Origin: Rhodococcus sp. IITR03 | GTDB lineage: Bacteria > Actinomycetota > Actinomycetes > Mycobacteriales > Mycobacteriaceae | Reading direction: 5' to 3' | DNA length: 7,356 bases | NCBI GenBank assembly: GCA_001017865.1 | Contig: LATQ01000001.1 | Location: 5,646-13,001 of the forward strand | Shown: positions 1 to 7,200 of the stretch, one piece after another | How the letters are laid out: every line of letters begins with the position of its first letter | How positions within the stretch are numbered: the first letter of the stretch is position 1 | The notes under the pieces: generated by a model | What the model saw: only the letters and a program-made list of their open reading frames with translations | What the model was told of the DNA's origin: nothing | Database searches by the model: none | Translations under genes and position numbers: made by a program

Positions 1-1
1 G

Positions 2-202
2 GCGCAGACAGCGTTCAGGGGTCGGGGTGCGCGCTCGGGCCGAGGCGCGCGTTCGGGACGGGGTGCACGTTCGGGACGCGGTGCCCGGCTGCGGCACCGT
101 CCTGCGTCTCGCGAGGCTGCGTCTCCGAAGGGAAATCGGACGAAGAGGATGCGTTCACCGGAGAGGCCCCGTTCGAGCTGCCATCGTGTCGTGAACGCAT
201 GA
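2..202 (+). CDS. 3' end of an unidentified protein with an Arg/Gly-rich repeat tail (5'-partial)
   Basis: Reading from base 2, this frame is open from the left edge to TGA at 200-202 (66 codons) and has no start in the window. Residues 6-29 are four tandem hexapeptides, RGRGAR followed by three copies of SGRGAR. After that comes a basic Ser/Arg/Pro-rich tail ending HRVVNA. The frame choice rests on the repeat: apart from the first codon of unit one (AGG versus TCG), all base differences between the four 18-base units fall on third codon positions of this frame and are silent. That is expected only if this frame is translated. The gene runs towards the NRPS. Arg/Gly-rich tails are known in RNA-binding proteins such as DEAD-box helicases, but nothing here identifies the family. 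G+C at third positions falls after the repeat, and a missing base like those in the NRPS could have altered the last ~35 residues and the stop. Confidence 0.6.
   Translation, partial: AQTAFRGRGARSGRGARSGRGARSGRGARLRHRPASREAASPKGNRTKRMRSPERPRSSCHRVVNA
17..88 (+). repeat. Four tandem 18-bp units encoding (S/R)GRGAR
   Basis: The units lie at 17-34, 35-52, 53-70 and 71-88. Units two to four each encode Ser-Gly-Arg-Gly-Ala-Arg; unit one starts with Arg instead of Ser. The Gly, Arg, Gly, Ala and Arg codons all vary between units, but only in the third base. The array has therefore diverged in DNA while the peptide stayed fixed. It may begin further left, outside the window. Confidence 0.8.
149..200. 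repeat. Inverted repeat with perfect 10-bp arms
   Basis: ATGCGTTCAC at 149-158 is matched by its exact reverse complement GTGAACGCAT at 191-200, with a 32-base gap. The right arm runs into the TGA stop of the plus-strand reading frame. On the plus strand it is followed by an A-run, not a T-run, so it is not a classic intrinsic terminator for that gene. It could form a long-loop stem in RNA or be a binding site; a chance match is possible. Confidence 0.4.
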
Positions 203-286
203 AAAAGCCCATACCCTTCGCTTTCGATCCCAACGGTCGCGTCTGCGAACCGAGCAAGCATAGTCACCCGCCGGAAACGGGCGAAC

Positions 287-369: not shown

Positions 370-400
370 GTGGTGGGGCCACCCGAAGCGGCCCCACCAC
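370..400 (-). terminator. Probable intrinsic terminator of the NRPS gene
   Basis: GTGGTGGGGCC (370-380) and GGCCCCACCAC (390-400) form a perfect 11-bp stem around a 9-base loop, starting four bases past the NRPS stop codon (405-407). No T-run follows on either strand; hairpins without a T-run are common after actinobacterial genes. Being symmetric and between convergent genes, it could stop transcription from both sides. Its position supports the NRPS stop as the true end of the gene. Confidence 0.75.
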
Positions 401-404
401 ATCG

Positions 405-1260
405 TCAGTCCAGGTCAGCGAGCCGGTACAGGCGGTGTGCCGCGCCCCACTCCTCGAGCAACCCGTCGGGGGCGTCATCCACCACGACGACGGCCGCGAG
501 GTCCTCGAGCGACCCGGGTTCGAGCGTGCTCAGAGATGCCTCGGCAGGTGCACGTGGGTGACCCACTCGTTGTAGAGCACGCTGTCCAGTGCCGTACCCG
601 ACGACGCGCCTCGGGCACGACCACGACGACGGCACCGGTCGCCGTGACGACCAGCGGTTCGAGCGCCACCGCCTCGATCTCGACACCGCCCACCGCGAGG
701 CTGCGCGACTCGTAGGTCAGCTCGTACCGATCCCGCAGCGTGCCGATCCTCTCGACCAGTTCGACGTTCGTGAACGTCCGCGAGGGCAGCACGAGTGCCG
801 GGTCCGCCGAGCCGACCGGACGCAACCGGTCGGCGTAGGTCACCGGATCCGCCGGCTGCGCAGCCAGCTCGTCCCGCACACCGGGCTCGTCGACGACCAA
901 CCAGCTGTCCGCACCGTTCGCCGCGGTACCGGCGACCGTCAGTCCCAGAGCGGCTCCGGCGGGCAGCTGCCCGTCGACGCGGGTGGGATCGACCGGCACG
1001 ATCGCGGCACCGGTCTTGACCACCGCCCACTGGGCGACCACGGACTCCACCGAGCGTGGGATCGCGACCGCGACGACATCGCCGGTGCCGAGGCCGCGGC
1101 CGATGAGAAGCCGAGCCAGGCGGGACGACCGTGCGTCGAGTTCCCGGTAGGCGATCTCCGTCCCCTCACCGCCGATCTCCGGATCGGCCGGGAGCGAGAG
1201 CGCCGGCGCCGCCGGATCCTCCTCGACCACCTCGGCGAAGACCGTGGCCAGCGTCCGCGC
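405..1260 (-). other. Truncated, catalytically dead adenylation-like domain (A*) at the C-terminus
   Basis: About 285 residues collinear with the first half of an A domain. A1 (YRELDARSSRLARLLIGRG) and A2 (VKTGAAIVPVDPTR) are clear, followed by SWLVVDEPG and ADRLRPV as in the complete A domain upstream. Where A3 should give the Gly/Ser/Lys ATP loop it reads ALVLPSRTFTNVELV. Where FD of A4 is expected it reads VGGVEIEAVALEP. The fold then continues (VTHVHLPEASLSTLEPG, AVVVVDDAPDGLLEEWG) and stops at HRLYRLADLD just where A5 NGYGPTE would begin. It cannot bind ATP or adenylate by known rules. Codon use stays like that of its neighbours, which argues that the segment is kept for a purpose, perhaps as a platform for the C domain. 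Frame breaks occur near 605 and 543. Confidence 0.85.
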
Positions 1261-4200
1261 GCCGGTGTCCACGGCCGCGCTGGACGGTCCGGACTCGGCG
1301 ACGATGCGGGCGAGTTCCTCCGCATCGACGAGGTCGATGTCGCCGACCACCGACTCCGGATCGGCGGCGAACGCGTCGAGCACGCGCACCAGCCGCTCCG
1401 AGATGTTCCTGACCTCCGACTCGGCGAAGAACCGCTCGAGGTACTTGAAGGTCAGGTCGATCTGCGTGTCGGCGACCGTCATGAGAGTGATCGGGTAGTG
1501 CGTGGCGTCCTTGACCCCCACCCCGGTGATCGTCATGCCGTCGATCGACCCCGCGGCGTCGGACAGTGCCTCGCGGTCGATCGGGTACGACTCGAACACC
1601 AGCAGTGAGTCGAAGCCGATCGGGTTCCCGATCCGCTGTTCGATCTCGGACAGTCCGACGTAGTGGTGGTCGAGCAGACCGGCCTGTTCGGACTGCAGGC
1701 GCTGCAGCAGCTGCGCCACCGACTCGTGCGGATCGACCGCACGCGCACCGGCAGGGTGTTGATGAACAGACCGACCATCGACTCGACGCCGGGCAGGTCG
1801 GCGGGGCGACCCGAGACCGTGGCACCGAACACGATGTCCGGGTTGCCGGTGATGCGGCCGAGCAGCACACCCCAGGCGGCCTGCACGAGCGTGTTCACCG
1901 TGACGCCGAGCTCCGTGGCCAGCATCGTCAGCCGGGCGGTGTGATCGGTGTCGACCAGGACGGAGACCTTCGAGATCGTCTCGTTGTCGGGATCGCGCTG
2001 GACCGGCGCGATCACCGTCGGCTCGGAGAGCCCCTGGAGTGTCTGTGCCCACGCGTCGAGCGAGGCGGCGTGGTCCTGCTCGGCGAGCCAAGCGAGGAAG
2101 TTCCGGTAGGAACGCACGCGCGGCAGCACCGTGCGGTCTCCGCGCAGCACGTACAGGGCCATGAGGTCCTGCATGAGCAGCGGCATCGACCAGCCGTCGA
2201 GGAGGATGTGGTGGCTCGTCACCGCCAGGTGGTAGCGATCCGCCCCGGACCTCACGAGCAGGAACCGCATGAGCGGTGCCGTCTCCATGTCGAAACGCCG
2301 GGCCTGCTCGTCGGCGAGCACGTCCGCGAGTTCGGCCTCTCGGACGTCGTCCGCGCGATCGGTGAGATCGACCGTTCGCCACGGCAGTTCGACCTCGTCG
2401 AGCACGAGCTGCAGCGACTGCCCTCGTCGTCGGTGACGAATGCCGTGCGGAGGTTCGGGTACCGGTCGAGCAGTGCCTGTCCCGCGTCCCGCAGACGGTC
2501 GGGATCCACCGTGCCTTCGAGGTCGAGGACCGCCTGCATCGTGTAGACGTCGACGCGCTCGTCGATCGTCATCGATGCGTGGAAGAGCAGACCGGTCTGC
2601 AGCGGCGACAGCGGCCACACGTCCGCCAGCGACGGGTAGCGCTGCTCCCACGTCTCGATCTCCTTCTGGTCGATGTCGACCAGCGGCAGATCGGACGGGG
2701 TCAGGCCACCTGCGGCCCGGCGGACGCGGCGTGCCGCGCGAGTGCGCTCAACGCCTCGAGCCAGTGCTGCGCGAGTTCGTCGACGTCGTCGCGGTCCAGC
2801 AGACCCGCCGGGAAGGCGATGTTCGCCCCGAGCTGTGGGCCGTCCGCACCGTCGGAGACCACGGCGTTGATGTCCACGCTCGCGTTGGCGGGCATGTCGG
2901 CGTCCTGGGTCACGTCGAGCTTGCCCAGCGCGTCGGTGGGCGCCCAGCCGATCTCGGCGAGCCCCTCCGGCACGTCCGCCGAGGAGACCCGGCCGAGGTA
3001 GTTGAAGCTGACCTGCGGTGAGCGTGCGATCTCGGCCAGGCGCGCCGACGATTCCGGATCGAGGTAACGCAGCAGACCGAAGCCCATGCCCTTGTCCGGA
3101 TCCCGAGCAGCTGCTCCTTGACGGCCTTGACCGCCGAACCCATCGCGCACCGCCGGCGAAGGCGTCGTCGACGTCCACACCGGCGAGGTCGACCCGCACC
3201 GGGTAGGCGCTGGTGAACCAGCCGACCGTCCGAGACAGGTCGGCGCCCGGCACCACGGATTCCTCGCGGCCGTGCTCGAACTTCACGAGGGCGGAGGAGG
3301 ATTCGATGCCGCGGTCGCGGCGCCAGCTCACGAGTGCCAGTCCGAGCGCGGCCACCAGACCGTCGGCGACACCGCCGCGGAACAGGGCCGGCACCGTGGT
3401 GAGCAGTGCATCGGTCTGCGCGGCGTCGAGATTCATCTCGATGCGTTCGACGGTGGAGGTGACGTCGACGGCGGGGTCGAAGGGACGCTCGCCGAGCAGC
3501 GGGTCCGGTCCCTCGAGGATCCGTTCCCACAGCGGCAGTTCCGACCGGCGCTGTGCCGCGGCATCCACGAGGCCGTGGGCCCAGCGGCGCAGCGACGTTC
3601 CGACGGCCTCGAGCCGCGGTTGCTCACCGGAGACGATCTGTCCCCAGGCCAGACCGAGGTCCGGCAGCAGGATGCGCCACGACACGCCGTCCATCACCAG
3701 GTGGTGGGCGACGACGAGGAGCACGCCGCGACGTTCGGCCGAGCCGAAGTCGAACCACACGAATCGCAGCACCGAGCCGGCGAACGGGTCGAGTGCTCCG
3801 AGCGCGGAATCGAGTTCGCGGGAGGCGATCTCGGTGAGCTCGGCGTCGTCGACGTCGGCCGCGACCTCGACTCGCGTCAGCAGGCATCCGGGTCCACGGT
3901 GCTCGCGGAGCGACCCGCAGGGTCACCTCTCCGTCGGCATCGCGTTCGAGGATCGAGCGCAGCGCGTCGTGGTGGTCGACGACCGCGCCGATGGTGCGGG
4001 TCAGCACGTCCCGGTCGATGTCGGCCGGGAGGGTCACGGCGACGGTCTGCGAGAAGCGGTCGAAGCCGCCGGGCCAGCCGAGGACCTCGCGCATGATCGG
4101 GGTGAGCGGCACGTCGCCGACACCGCCGCCGGGGAGTTCATCGAGTCGCACCGCCTGCGTCTCGTCGGGGCGGGTGGCGACCTCGGCGAGGCCCGCCACC

Positions 4201-7200
4201 GAACGACGCTCGAAGACGTCACGCGGCGTGAACACCACACCACGCGCCTTCGCCCGCGACACCAACTGGATCGACACGATGCTGTCGCCACCGAGCGCGA
4301 AGAACGACTCGTCGACACTCACCTTGTCCAGATGCAGAACCTCCGCGAAGACCTCCGCGATGATCTGCTCGACCTCACTCTCCGCAGCCCGGTACTCGCG
4401 CTCCTCGATCACCGGCTCCGGAAGAGCATCACGATCGAGCTTGCCCACCGGCGTCAGCGGCACCTCGTCGAGCACCACGATCGCCGACGGCACCATGTGC
4501 GGCGGCAACGACCGCGCCACGAACTCCGTCAACTCCGCGGTGTCGACCGTCCGGCCGCGGACGGGCAGCACGTACGACACCAGCACCGTGGCACCCGAGC
4601 CGGTCGTGCGGCCCAGGGTCGCCGCGAAGTCCACCGTCTCGTGTTCGGTCAGCGCCGCGTCGATCTCACCGAGTTCGATGCGGAAACCGCGCACCTTGAC
4701 CTGGAAGTCGCTGCGGCCGACGAACTCGAGTTCGACGGGGCCGCCGTCGATCGAGCGCCAGCGCACCACGTCGCCGGTGCGGTACATGCAGGATCCGTCG
4801 GCGCTGTACGGGTTGGCGACGAATCGCTCCGAGGTCAGGCCGCTGCGACCGTGGTAGCCGCGTGCGAGTGCACCACCGGCCATGTACAGCTCACCGGCGA
4901 CACCCTCGGGCACCGGCTGGAGCCGGGCGTCGAGGACGAGCGCGGAGACCCCGTGCGTGGGATTGCCGATGGTGATCGGCCGTCCCGGCTGCAGCTTGCC
5001 GAAGGACGAGATGATCGTCGTCTCGGTCGGGCCGTAGCCGTTGAAGTACTTCCGTCCCGGCGCCCACCGCGCGAGCAGTTCGGGCGTGGTGACGTCGCCG
5101 CCGACGGAGACCACCTCGAGGCTGTCGATGCCGGTCGGATCCATCGTGCCGAGCACCGCGGGCGTGATGATCGTGTGGGTCACGCGTTCGGTCTTCAGCA
5201 GTTCGGCGAGATCCGGCCCCCCGATGATCCCGGCGGGCACGATCACCAGCGTGGCGCCGCTGGAGAACGCCGCCATCCACTCGAGCACCGACGGGTCGAA
5301 GCTCGGCGAGCAGATGTGCAGGAAGCGGTGGCCGGTCCGCAGGTGGTAGAGATCCACCGCGGTGTCGACCACTCCCCCGAGTCCGGTGTGCGTGACGACG
5401 ACACCCTTCGGTCGACCGGTCGAACCCGACGTGTAGATCACGTAGGCCGGCTGGTCGAGCCGGATCGGGCGCAGTCGCTCGGCGTCGGTGATCGGATCGG
5501 CCGACCGTGCCTCGAGTGCGGCGGCGGTCTCCGCCGAGTCGAGCACGAGCCAGTCGGCCTCGTCCGGCAGGCCGTCGATGTGCGTGCCGCCTGTGATGCC
5601 CAGTGCCGCACCGGAATCGGACAGCATGTAACGCACGCGGTCGGCCGGATAGGTCGGGTCGACCGGCAGGTGTGCGGCGCCGGTCTTCGCGATCGCCCAC
5701 ACGCTCAGCACCATCTCGTACGACCGCGGGTACGCGACCGCGACGATGTTCTCCGGTCCGACACCCCGCTCGATGAGCAGGCGTGCCAGTCGCGACGAGG
5801 TCTCGTCGAGTTCCCGGTAGGTGATCGAGCGACCCTCGTAGCGCACCGCCACGGCGTCGGGGTCCATCGCGACACCGGTCGTGAGGATGTCGGTGAGGCT
5901 TCCCCCGGCACTGACACGGTCGCCGTGGACGTGGGTGAGTCGGTCGAACTCGTCCGCGTCGAGGATCGCCAGGTCGCCGACGGGCGACTGCGGATCGTCC
6001 AACGCACCGGTGAGCAGCATCGAGAACCTGCGCGCGAACTCCTCGACGGTCCGCCGATCGAACAGGGCCGTCGCGTAGGAGAACTCGGCTCCGATGCCGG
6101 CGGGCTCGCCCGTCTCGTCGTACTGCTCGCGCAGCGTCAGGGACAGGTCGAACTTCGCGGTGTCGACGTCGAAGGGGACACCCGAAACCGTCAGGCCCGG
6201 GAGTTCGAGACCGGCCGACGGCAGGTTCTCGAACGACAGCGCCACCTGGAACAGCGGGTGGCGGGCGGTCGACGCTCCGGCGCGAGGATCTCCACGAGCC
6301 GTTCGAACGGGATGTCCGCGTGGGCGAACGCCTCGAGGTCGGTCTCCCGGACCCGGGCGAGCAGATCGGTGAAGCTCTCCCCGCCGTCCACCCGGCTGCG
6401 CAGCACGAGCGTGTTGACGAACATGCCGATCATGTCGTCGAGTTCGTGCTCGCCACGGCCCGCGATCGGGGTACCGATCGCGACGTCGTCGGTGTCCGCC
6501 ATGCGGGCGAGGAACACCGCGAGCGCGGTGTGCATCACCATGAACATCGTCGTGCCGGTCCGGCGTGCGAGTTCGGCGACGGCGCGGTGCGTCTGCGCGT
6601 CGATCGTGAGTCCGACCGTGCCGCCGGCGAACGACTGCACCGGCGGGCGCGGACGGTCCATCGGCAGGTTCAGCTCGTCCGGAAGTCCGGCGAGGGCGTC
6701 CTGCCAGTACGCCGCCTGGGCGGACAGCACGCTCTCGGGATCGCCCTCGGAACCGAGCACCTGGCGCTGCCACACCGCGAAGTCGGCGTACTGCACCGGC
6801 AGCGGCGTCCAGCCCGGTTCCTCCCCGTGTGCACGGGAGAGATAGGCGGTCATGACGTCCCGGGTCAGCGGAGCCATCGACCAGCCGTCGGCACTGATGT
6901 GGTGGACGACGAAGACCAGCACGTGGTCGGTCTCGCTCAGCCGCAGCAGCGCCACCCGCAGCGGCAACTCCGCGGTGACGTCGAAACCGGTGGTGACGAT
7001 CTCGCGGATCCGATCCGGCACGTCCGCCGGGTCGACGTCCTCGGCGACAACCTGCGGTGCCGCATCGGCCGTGAGCAGGACGAGCTGGTAAGGACGCCGT
7101 CGTCCTCCGGGTAGATCGTGCGCAGCACCTCGTGACGGTCGAGCATGTCGCGGACCGCCGCCTGCAGGGCCTCGACGTCGAGCGCACCGGTGAGCCGCAC

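Follow-up and report, generated by a model that had tools for sequence, protein, structure and literature searches.

A half-length pseudo-adenylation domain as a putative docking element at C|A junctions of nonribosomal peptide synthetases in Rhodococcus and its relatives

Why does a giant nonribosomal peptide synthetase (NRPS) subunit end in half of a dead adenylation domain, and does the assembly line end there as well? The window analysed here (the whole stretch of DNA, 7,356 nucleotides) holds the minus-strand 3' end of a giant Rhodococcus-type NRPS gene with the domain order C-A-T-E-C-A*, where A* denotes the half-length domain, followed by a stop codon, a hairpin and the start of the next gene. 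The features of the window are as follows.

1..257, minus strand: start of the next NRPS gene, comprising a linker and an Arg/Pro-rich N-terminal tail, homologous to the start of a 2,519-aa subunit of the relative G010; start codon uncertain, with frame breaks
370..400, minus strand: hairpin directly 3' of the stop, without a T run (from folding; found in part of the relatives)
405..407, minus strand: stop codon of the A*-ended subunit (from the sequence; the database proteins P0001 and P0002 share the last residues)
408..1266, minus strand: A*, half-length pseudo-adenylation domain and C-terminus of the NRPS subunit (partial PF00501 match; landmarks mapped from G010; two frame breaks)
554..571, minus strand: NEWVTH, a motif specific to A* (its W, T and H are present in all 37 rows of the A* alignment)
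700..717, minus strand: TYESRS, a motif conserved specifically in A*, within its second half (YESR-like in 38/38 A* and in 1/210 true A domains)
988..1017, minus strand: A2-like motif retained in A* (mapped from G010 residue 9657)
1330..2640, minus strand: last condensation domain, approximate boundaries (PF00668); catalytic HHILLDG at about 2193-2213
2790..4130, minus strand: epimerization-type domain upstream of the last C, approximate boundaries (motif map); HH motif near 3706
4150..4330, minus strand: carrier (T/PCP) domain, approximate boundaries; serine motif near 4292 (motif positions mapped from G010)
4457..5903, minus strand: A domain of the preceding module (ORF translation); A3 near 5432, A5 near 5036

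End point of the subunit

The minus-strand piece 601-1704 matched PF00501 (AMP-binding) over profile positions 2-79 of 384 only, directly after the Condensation match. Aligned with G010, the window shows 94.5% identity over 7,366 alignment columns and 23 gap openings, of which 19 are single-base and two lie inside A*. G010 reads A* through within one open frame of 9,860 residues that ends at the same point. This end point is also shared by three database proteins (P0001, P0002 and P0003) and by the ORF of a further locus (L001), and P0002, named as Rhodococcus rhodochrous, has last residues identical to those of the window subunit. Because G010 and other relatives are unbroken through A* and P0002 ends in the same residues, the end point can be taken as real on the strength of sequence comparison, and the indels of the window are most probably sequence errors. 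One truncated A domain at an ORF end is mentioned in PMC8692599, with a sequencing error suspected there. For the window, the reading that the truncation is only apparent, to which the indels relative to G010 lend some colour, is refuted by intact relatives that stop identically and deserves practically no credence.

The initial annotation had proposed that the NRPS ends in a pseudo-adenylation domain of ~285 residues that lacks A3 and the FD of A4 and stops before A5, and the relatives bear this out: the A* relatives that were read stop at the same place, and none runs on into A5-A10, a PCP or a thioesterase (TE). Of the hairpin terminator placed after the stop, the hairpin stood and the terminator did not. 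A 64-nt structure folds 3' of the stop with -41.1 kcal/mol (z -4.3), and a stem of at least nine pairs follows the A* stop in 18 of 38 A* of relatives, but one run of a promoter and terminator scan found nothing, and no T-run terminator was found at the hairpin.

Signature, selection and distribution of A*

The A3 motif occurs in none of 38 A* and in all 210 true A domains of the same loci, and an FDxS-like string in four of the 38 versus 208 of the 210. Regions A5-A10, including the C-terminal subdomain, are absent, the stop preceding A5 in the A* ends read; AMP-binding_C gave no match in the A* pieces scanned, and TIGR01733 (NCBIfam) scored 37.8-86.4 bits in five of five A*, below its cut-off of 317.4 bits. 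Residues conserved in A* and not in true A domains (YESR, the W of WxTH, and EDL) lie mainly in the second half. WxTH is absent from true A domains (0/210), and its presence in 38/38 A* holds by construction, the motif being part of the working definition of A*.

The net charge of the whole A* averages -25.7 (41 ends, one of them a spurious ORF), compared with a mean of -11.5 ± 3.7 in true A domains (n=154, counted over their first 270 residues). The second half, after the A3 column, carries -15.8 ± 3.2 in 38 A*, compared with -3.4 in 59 first A domains and -2.9 in 151 internal A domains (p 1e-22). A* was modelled on its own with AlphaFold because the C domain dominated the fold search with the C-A* model. 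The best model (pLDDT 83.9, pTM 0.86) matches A-domain N-cores in the fold search, the remaining four of five models having mean pLDDT of 77.4 to 58.7, and A* is predicted to keep the ANL (AMP-binding) N-core fold. The last C domain before A* has an intact HHxxxDG motif in 40/40 cases and could therefore act; in its own protein, no PCP lies downstream of it.

Selection on A* was estimated from 36 pairs of nine sequences. The dN/dS values of 0.19-0.44 exceed those of the adjoining C domain in most pairs, and A* is under purifying selection, in line with the earlier proposal that the dead half-length A core has been retained.

The genome counts for A* are lower bounds, and absences are not proven, because scoring was limited to the best 9-13 candidates in each genome. 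Strong matches to an A*-tail profile (E below 1e-50) were found in 9 of 18 genomes of the genus, and a broader A* profile matched at least 105 of 401 genomes of the family (E 1e-34 or better). At least nine genomes matched in a draw of 298 from the order (E 1e-30) and at least three in a draw of 396 from the phylum (E 1e-26), all of them already drawn as family members. When the loci were read at the sequence level, the arrangement [C]-A*-stop without A3 and A5 was found in 20 of 30 loci of one set; the other ten were read in the wrong frame, the A* of eight of these being read separately and L088 and L093 being left out. The same arrangement was found in 19 of 20 loci of a second set, with no gene called at L096, whose A* appears as L085. 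A third set comprised 19 loci; the best match fell on A* in 14 of them and on a normal A domain in the other five. A*-ended proteins accounted for 26 of 120 among the matches listed in one protein search. In a search with a Nocardia A* protein, 119 of the best 120 of 382 matches were A*-ended by the sequence test, and the remaining one ends in EEWITH. Named carriers include Prescottella, Antrihabitans, Rhodococcoides, Rhodococcus and many Nocardia. A local profile trained on the same A* sequences tells A* and internal matches apart, giving at least 135.6 bits to 40 A* and at most 115.2 bits to 387 internal matches.

A decaying remnant without function would explain the loss of the active-site motifs and a dN/dS somewhat above that of the C domain. 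However, the range of dN/dS values, the A*-specific conserved residues and the matches in more than a hundred family genomes speak against such a pseudogene, and, unless selection works on the DNA itself only, this reading was rejected as very improbable.

The C|A junction and its partner gene

A permanent NRPS terminus, as the initial annotation had envisaged, did not survive the inspection of the downstream genes. At 36 of 40 A* ends (script-scored in fetched loci), an Arg-tailed, A-first gene with a full A domain and no C domain follows within 450 bp on the same strand. At two further ends (the second A* of G010, and L099), an Arg-tailed A-first NRPS gene lies 2.0 and 3.3 kb on, behind other genes; for the remaining two, no further downstream gene is in hand. 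Because the following NRPS gene resumes with a full A domain, A* marks a subunit junction, ending a subunit and not the assembly line. The N-terminal tails of all 36 close partner genes have a net charge of +5 to +10. Complementary elements thus stand at both sides of the junction in 36/36 close pairs, and at 38/40 A* ends with the two distant ones. An Arg-rich tail in front and an A* behind are combined in the 2,519-aa subunit of G010 and in Nocardia subunits of ~2,450 aa.

We propose, with a probability of about two in three, that A* is a putative docking domain that arose from a dead adenylation domain and sits at C|A cuts of assembly lines. The lines would be cut between a condensation and an adenylation domain, the upstream subunit ending in C-A* and the downstream subunit opening with an Arg-rich tail, followed by the real A-T. 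The acidic second half of A* would bind the Arg-rich tail, and perhaps also the first A domain, while the first half may still sit beside C. Through this binding, the last C would meet the aminoacyl-PCP of the following subunit, and the peptide would cross between proteins. The proposal draws on the pairing of genes, the A*-specific residues, purifying selection, the opposite charges of the second A* half and the tail, the intact HHxxxDG of the last C and the relatedness of A* to the downstream first A domains.

Some observations count against docking. The sizes of A* charge and tail charge are not correlated (rho 0.06, p 0.74, n=36 pairs). The predicted packing of C on A*, in a model of low confidence as to relative position, is unlike that of solved C-A pairs. 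Arg tails also occur without a neighbouring A*: of seven A-first genes that follow TE-ended genes, six carry 6-12 Arg/Lys per 45 residues (net +2 to +7), and the first NRPS gene is likewise Arg-tailed in three Nocardia-type clusters (net +4 to +5). In these three clusters (L105, L106 and L108), regulator- or peptidase-like genes, as read from the sequence, lie upstream of the first NRPS gene, which has both an Arg tail and an A* end and might therefore pair with itself or with a subunit elsewhere.

Phylogenetic analysis placed the 38 A* in one clade among 248 domains (FastTree support 1.0; 0.992 for the first half and 0.996 for the second half alone), although long branches may have exaggerated this grouping, since the unrelated TIGR03089 was drawn into it. 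The sister group was formed by 20 Arg-tailed first A domains in the whole domain set (support 0.886) and by 21 first A domains in the first-half tree (0.847); the second-half tree placed A* with a mixed group without resolving its sister. A first-A profile outscored an internal-A profile in 38/38 A* (medians 142 versus 101 bits). Distances between A* pairs follow those of the downstream first A domain (partial r 0.44, 0/2,000 permutations, n=28, controlling for the C before A*, the next C and the next A), with a partial r of 0.34 for their own C; the correlation with the first A could come partly from common descent. The trees suggest a duplication of the A domain at the cut, after which one copy became the real A of the next subunit and the other decayed into A*.

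Descent of A* from TIGR03089, a 230-position family that resembles A* in its partial similarity to AMP-binding proteins, was also considered and rejected: with a profile built from eight TIGR03089 proteins, the median score of A* was 0.4 bits, versus 142 with the first-A profile. In the family's own test, the A* places listed reached ~23-33 bits against a curated cut-off of 85 bits, compared with 275-288 bits for members. Its position in the A* clade, on a branch of length 2.9, is read as probable long-branch attraction. TIGR03089 (L166-L173) is a stand-alone half AMP-binding protein with one above-cut-off match in each of 8/8 genomes.

The kinship and the distance correlation with the first A domain would also fit a dead-live pairing of A* with that domain itself, in which the Arg tail merely helps. 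For a pure A-A pairing, however, the joint presence of an acidic A* half and an Arg-rich tail in every close pair would be needless, and we regard this alternative as quite improbable.

A* could instead act only as a scaffold that covers the C surface normally packed on A and keeps C folded, with the Arg tail serving something else; the initial annotation had likewise suggested that A* may hold the last C domain in shape. In its first half, A* differs little in charge from true A domains (net -9.9 versus -8.0), the model keeps the fold, and PMC8150014 describes a stable conformation of the C-A didomain. However, the novelty of A* (acidity, YESR, WxTH and EDL) sits in the second half, and A* distances track the downstream A no less closely than the own C. 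In addition, the C-A* model (pTM 0.60), which has good local confidence (mean pLDDT 86.8) but a weak linker and low confidence in the relative domain position, lies ~12-16 Å rmsd over ~700 residues from solved C-A structures and does not reproduce the usual C-A packing (as in SrfA-C). A role as scaffold only is rather unlikely.

If A* is a docking domain, A* and the Arg tail may form a separate NRPS docking class, which Rhodococcus, Prescottella, Nocardia and their relatives would use at C|A cuts and which would be based on a duplicated and decayed A domain; in it, one A* might serve alternative terminal subunits and yield several products per line; we lean slightly towards this extension. In some clusters, several Arg-tailed, TE-ended subunits stand behind the same A* (three in G010), so one A* might feed alternative terminal subunits. 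Those of G010 (L162 and L163) are three successive Arg-tailed, A-first, TE-ended subunits in one cluster (Pfam).

The clusters show further features. In four genomes (G010, G006, G007 and G009), the NRPS cluster lies within ~10-20 kb of a run of ribosomal-protein-like genes, as read from translations. The A-T didomains at the start of two successive Arg-tailed subunits share long identical DNA runs within a genome, at the following places in joined-region coordinates.

G010: 48151 and 57549, 1,778 nt
G006: 29381 and 36885, 1,879 nt
L037: 3039 and 10508, 1,239 nt
G014: 30249 and 37763, 846 nt, cut by the end

These runs are identical within a genome and differ between genomes, which suggests gene conversion. 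A second type of C|A junction occurs in the clusters of G010, G006, G007 and G014 (proteins P0069-P0082; for example, L056 6771-7100 and 7245-7574). Here, the upstream end and the downstream start are similar acidic pieces of ~100 residues, A-domain-like at their start, which may form a homotypic docking pair; a scan of the two pieces found no Pfam family above its cut-off. Five A-first genes at this junction have a net charge of -6 to -7, with a different paired small piece.

Comparison with known docking systems

Docking of A* to the Arg tail would explain what links the subunits of the large NRPS lines in Rhodococcus and Nocardia, and A* would exemplify half of a dead enzyme that has become a connector. 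For genome miners, A*/tail pairs would offer a rule by which subunits can be put in order, and would reveal a possible branch point. In the accessible text of a review from 2021 that covers structurally characterised docking domains (PMC9113145), the NRPS types are COM (E/C), PAX (PCP/C) and beta-hairpin/SLiM, charge matters in the SLiM type, and C|A docking or an A-domain-derived docking element is not mentioned. A literature search, with thin coverage of subscription papers, found no description of a junction element formed by half an A domain at a C-terminus.

Like A* and its tail, the COM, PAX and beta-hairpin/SLiM types match a C-terminal element of one subunit to an N-terminal element of the next (PMC9113145). 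However, these are described as short elements at E/C or PCP/C junctions, whereas A* is a ~285-residue dead A core at a C|A junction with an A-first downstream subunit, which places it outside COM and PAX. The beta-hairpin/SLiM class pairs an N-terminal beta-hairpin domain with a short C-terminal linear motif, and A* is not short. The dehydratase docking domain (DHD) of trans-AT PKSs offers a parallel, since it sits at a C-terminus and docks to the surface of the catalytic domain that comes next (PMC9113145), but it is a PKS docking region and is not derived from an A domain. The truncated A domains (dA) of fungal SidD and Nps6 are likewise dead partial A domains kept in an NRPS; as described in PMC10192304, however, they lack ~290 N-terminal residues, the part that A* keeps, and lie within module 2 of one protein. 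The 'type S' NRPSs with synthetic zippers share with A* and its tail a cut in the C-A linker that is joined in trans, and the yield at such a C|A cut dropped when one zipper was omitted (PMC8362031). If the docking reading is true, a natural pair for the C-A linker cut would be a direct tool for NRPS engineers, who have used artificial zippers at this cut (PMC8362031): type S relies on man-made coiled coils, whereas A* and the Arg tail would be a natural solution.
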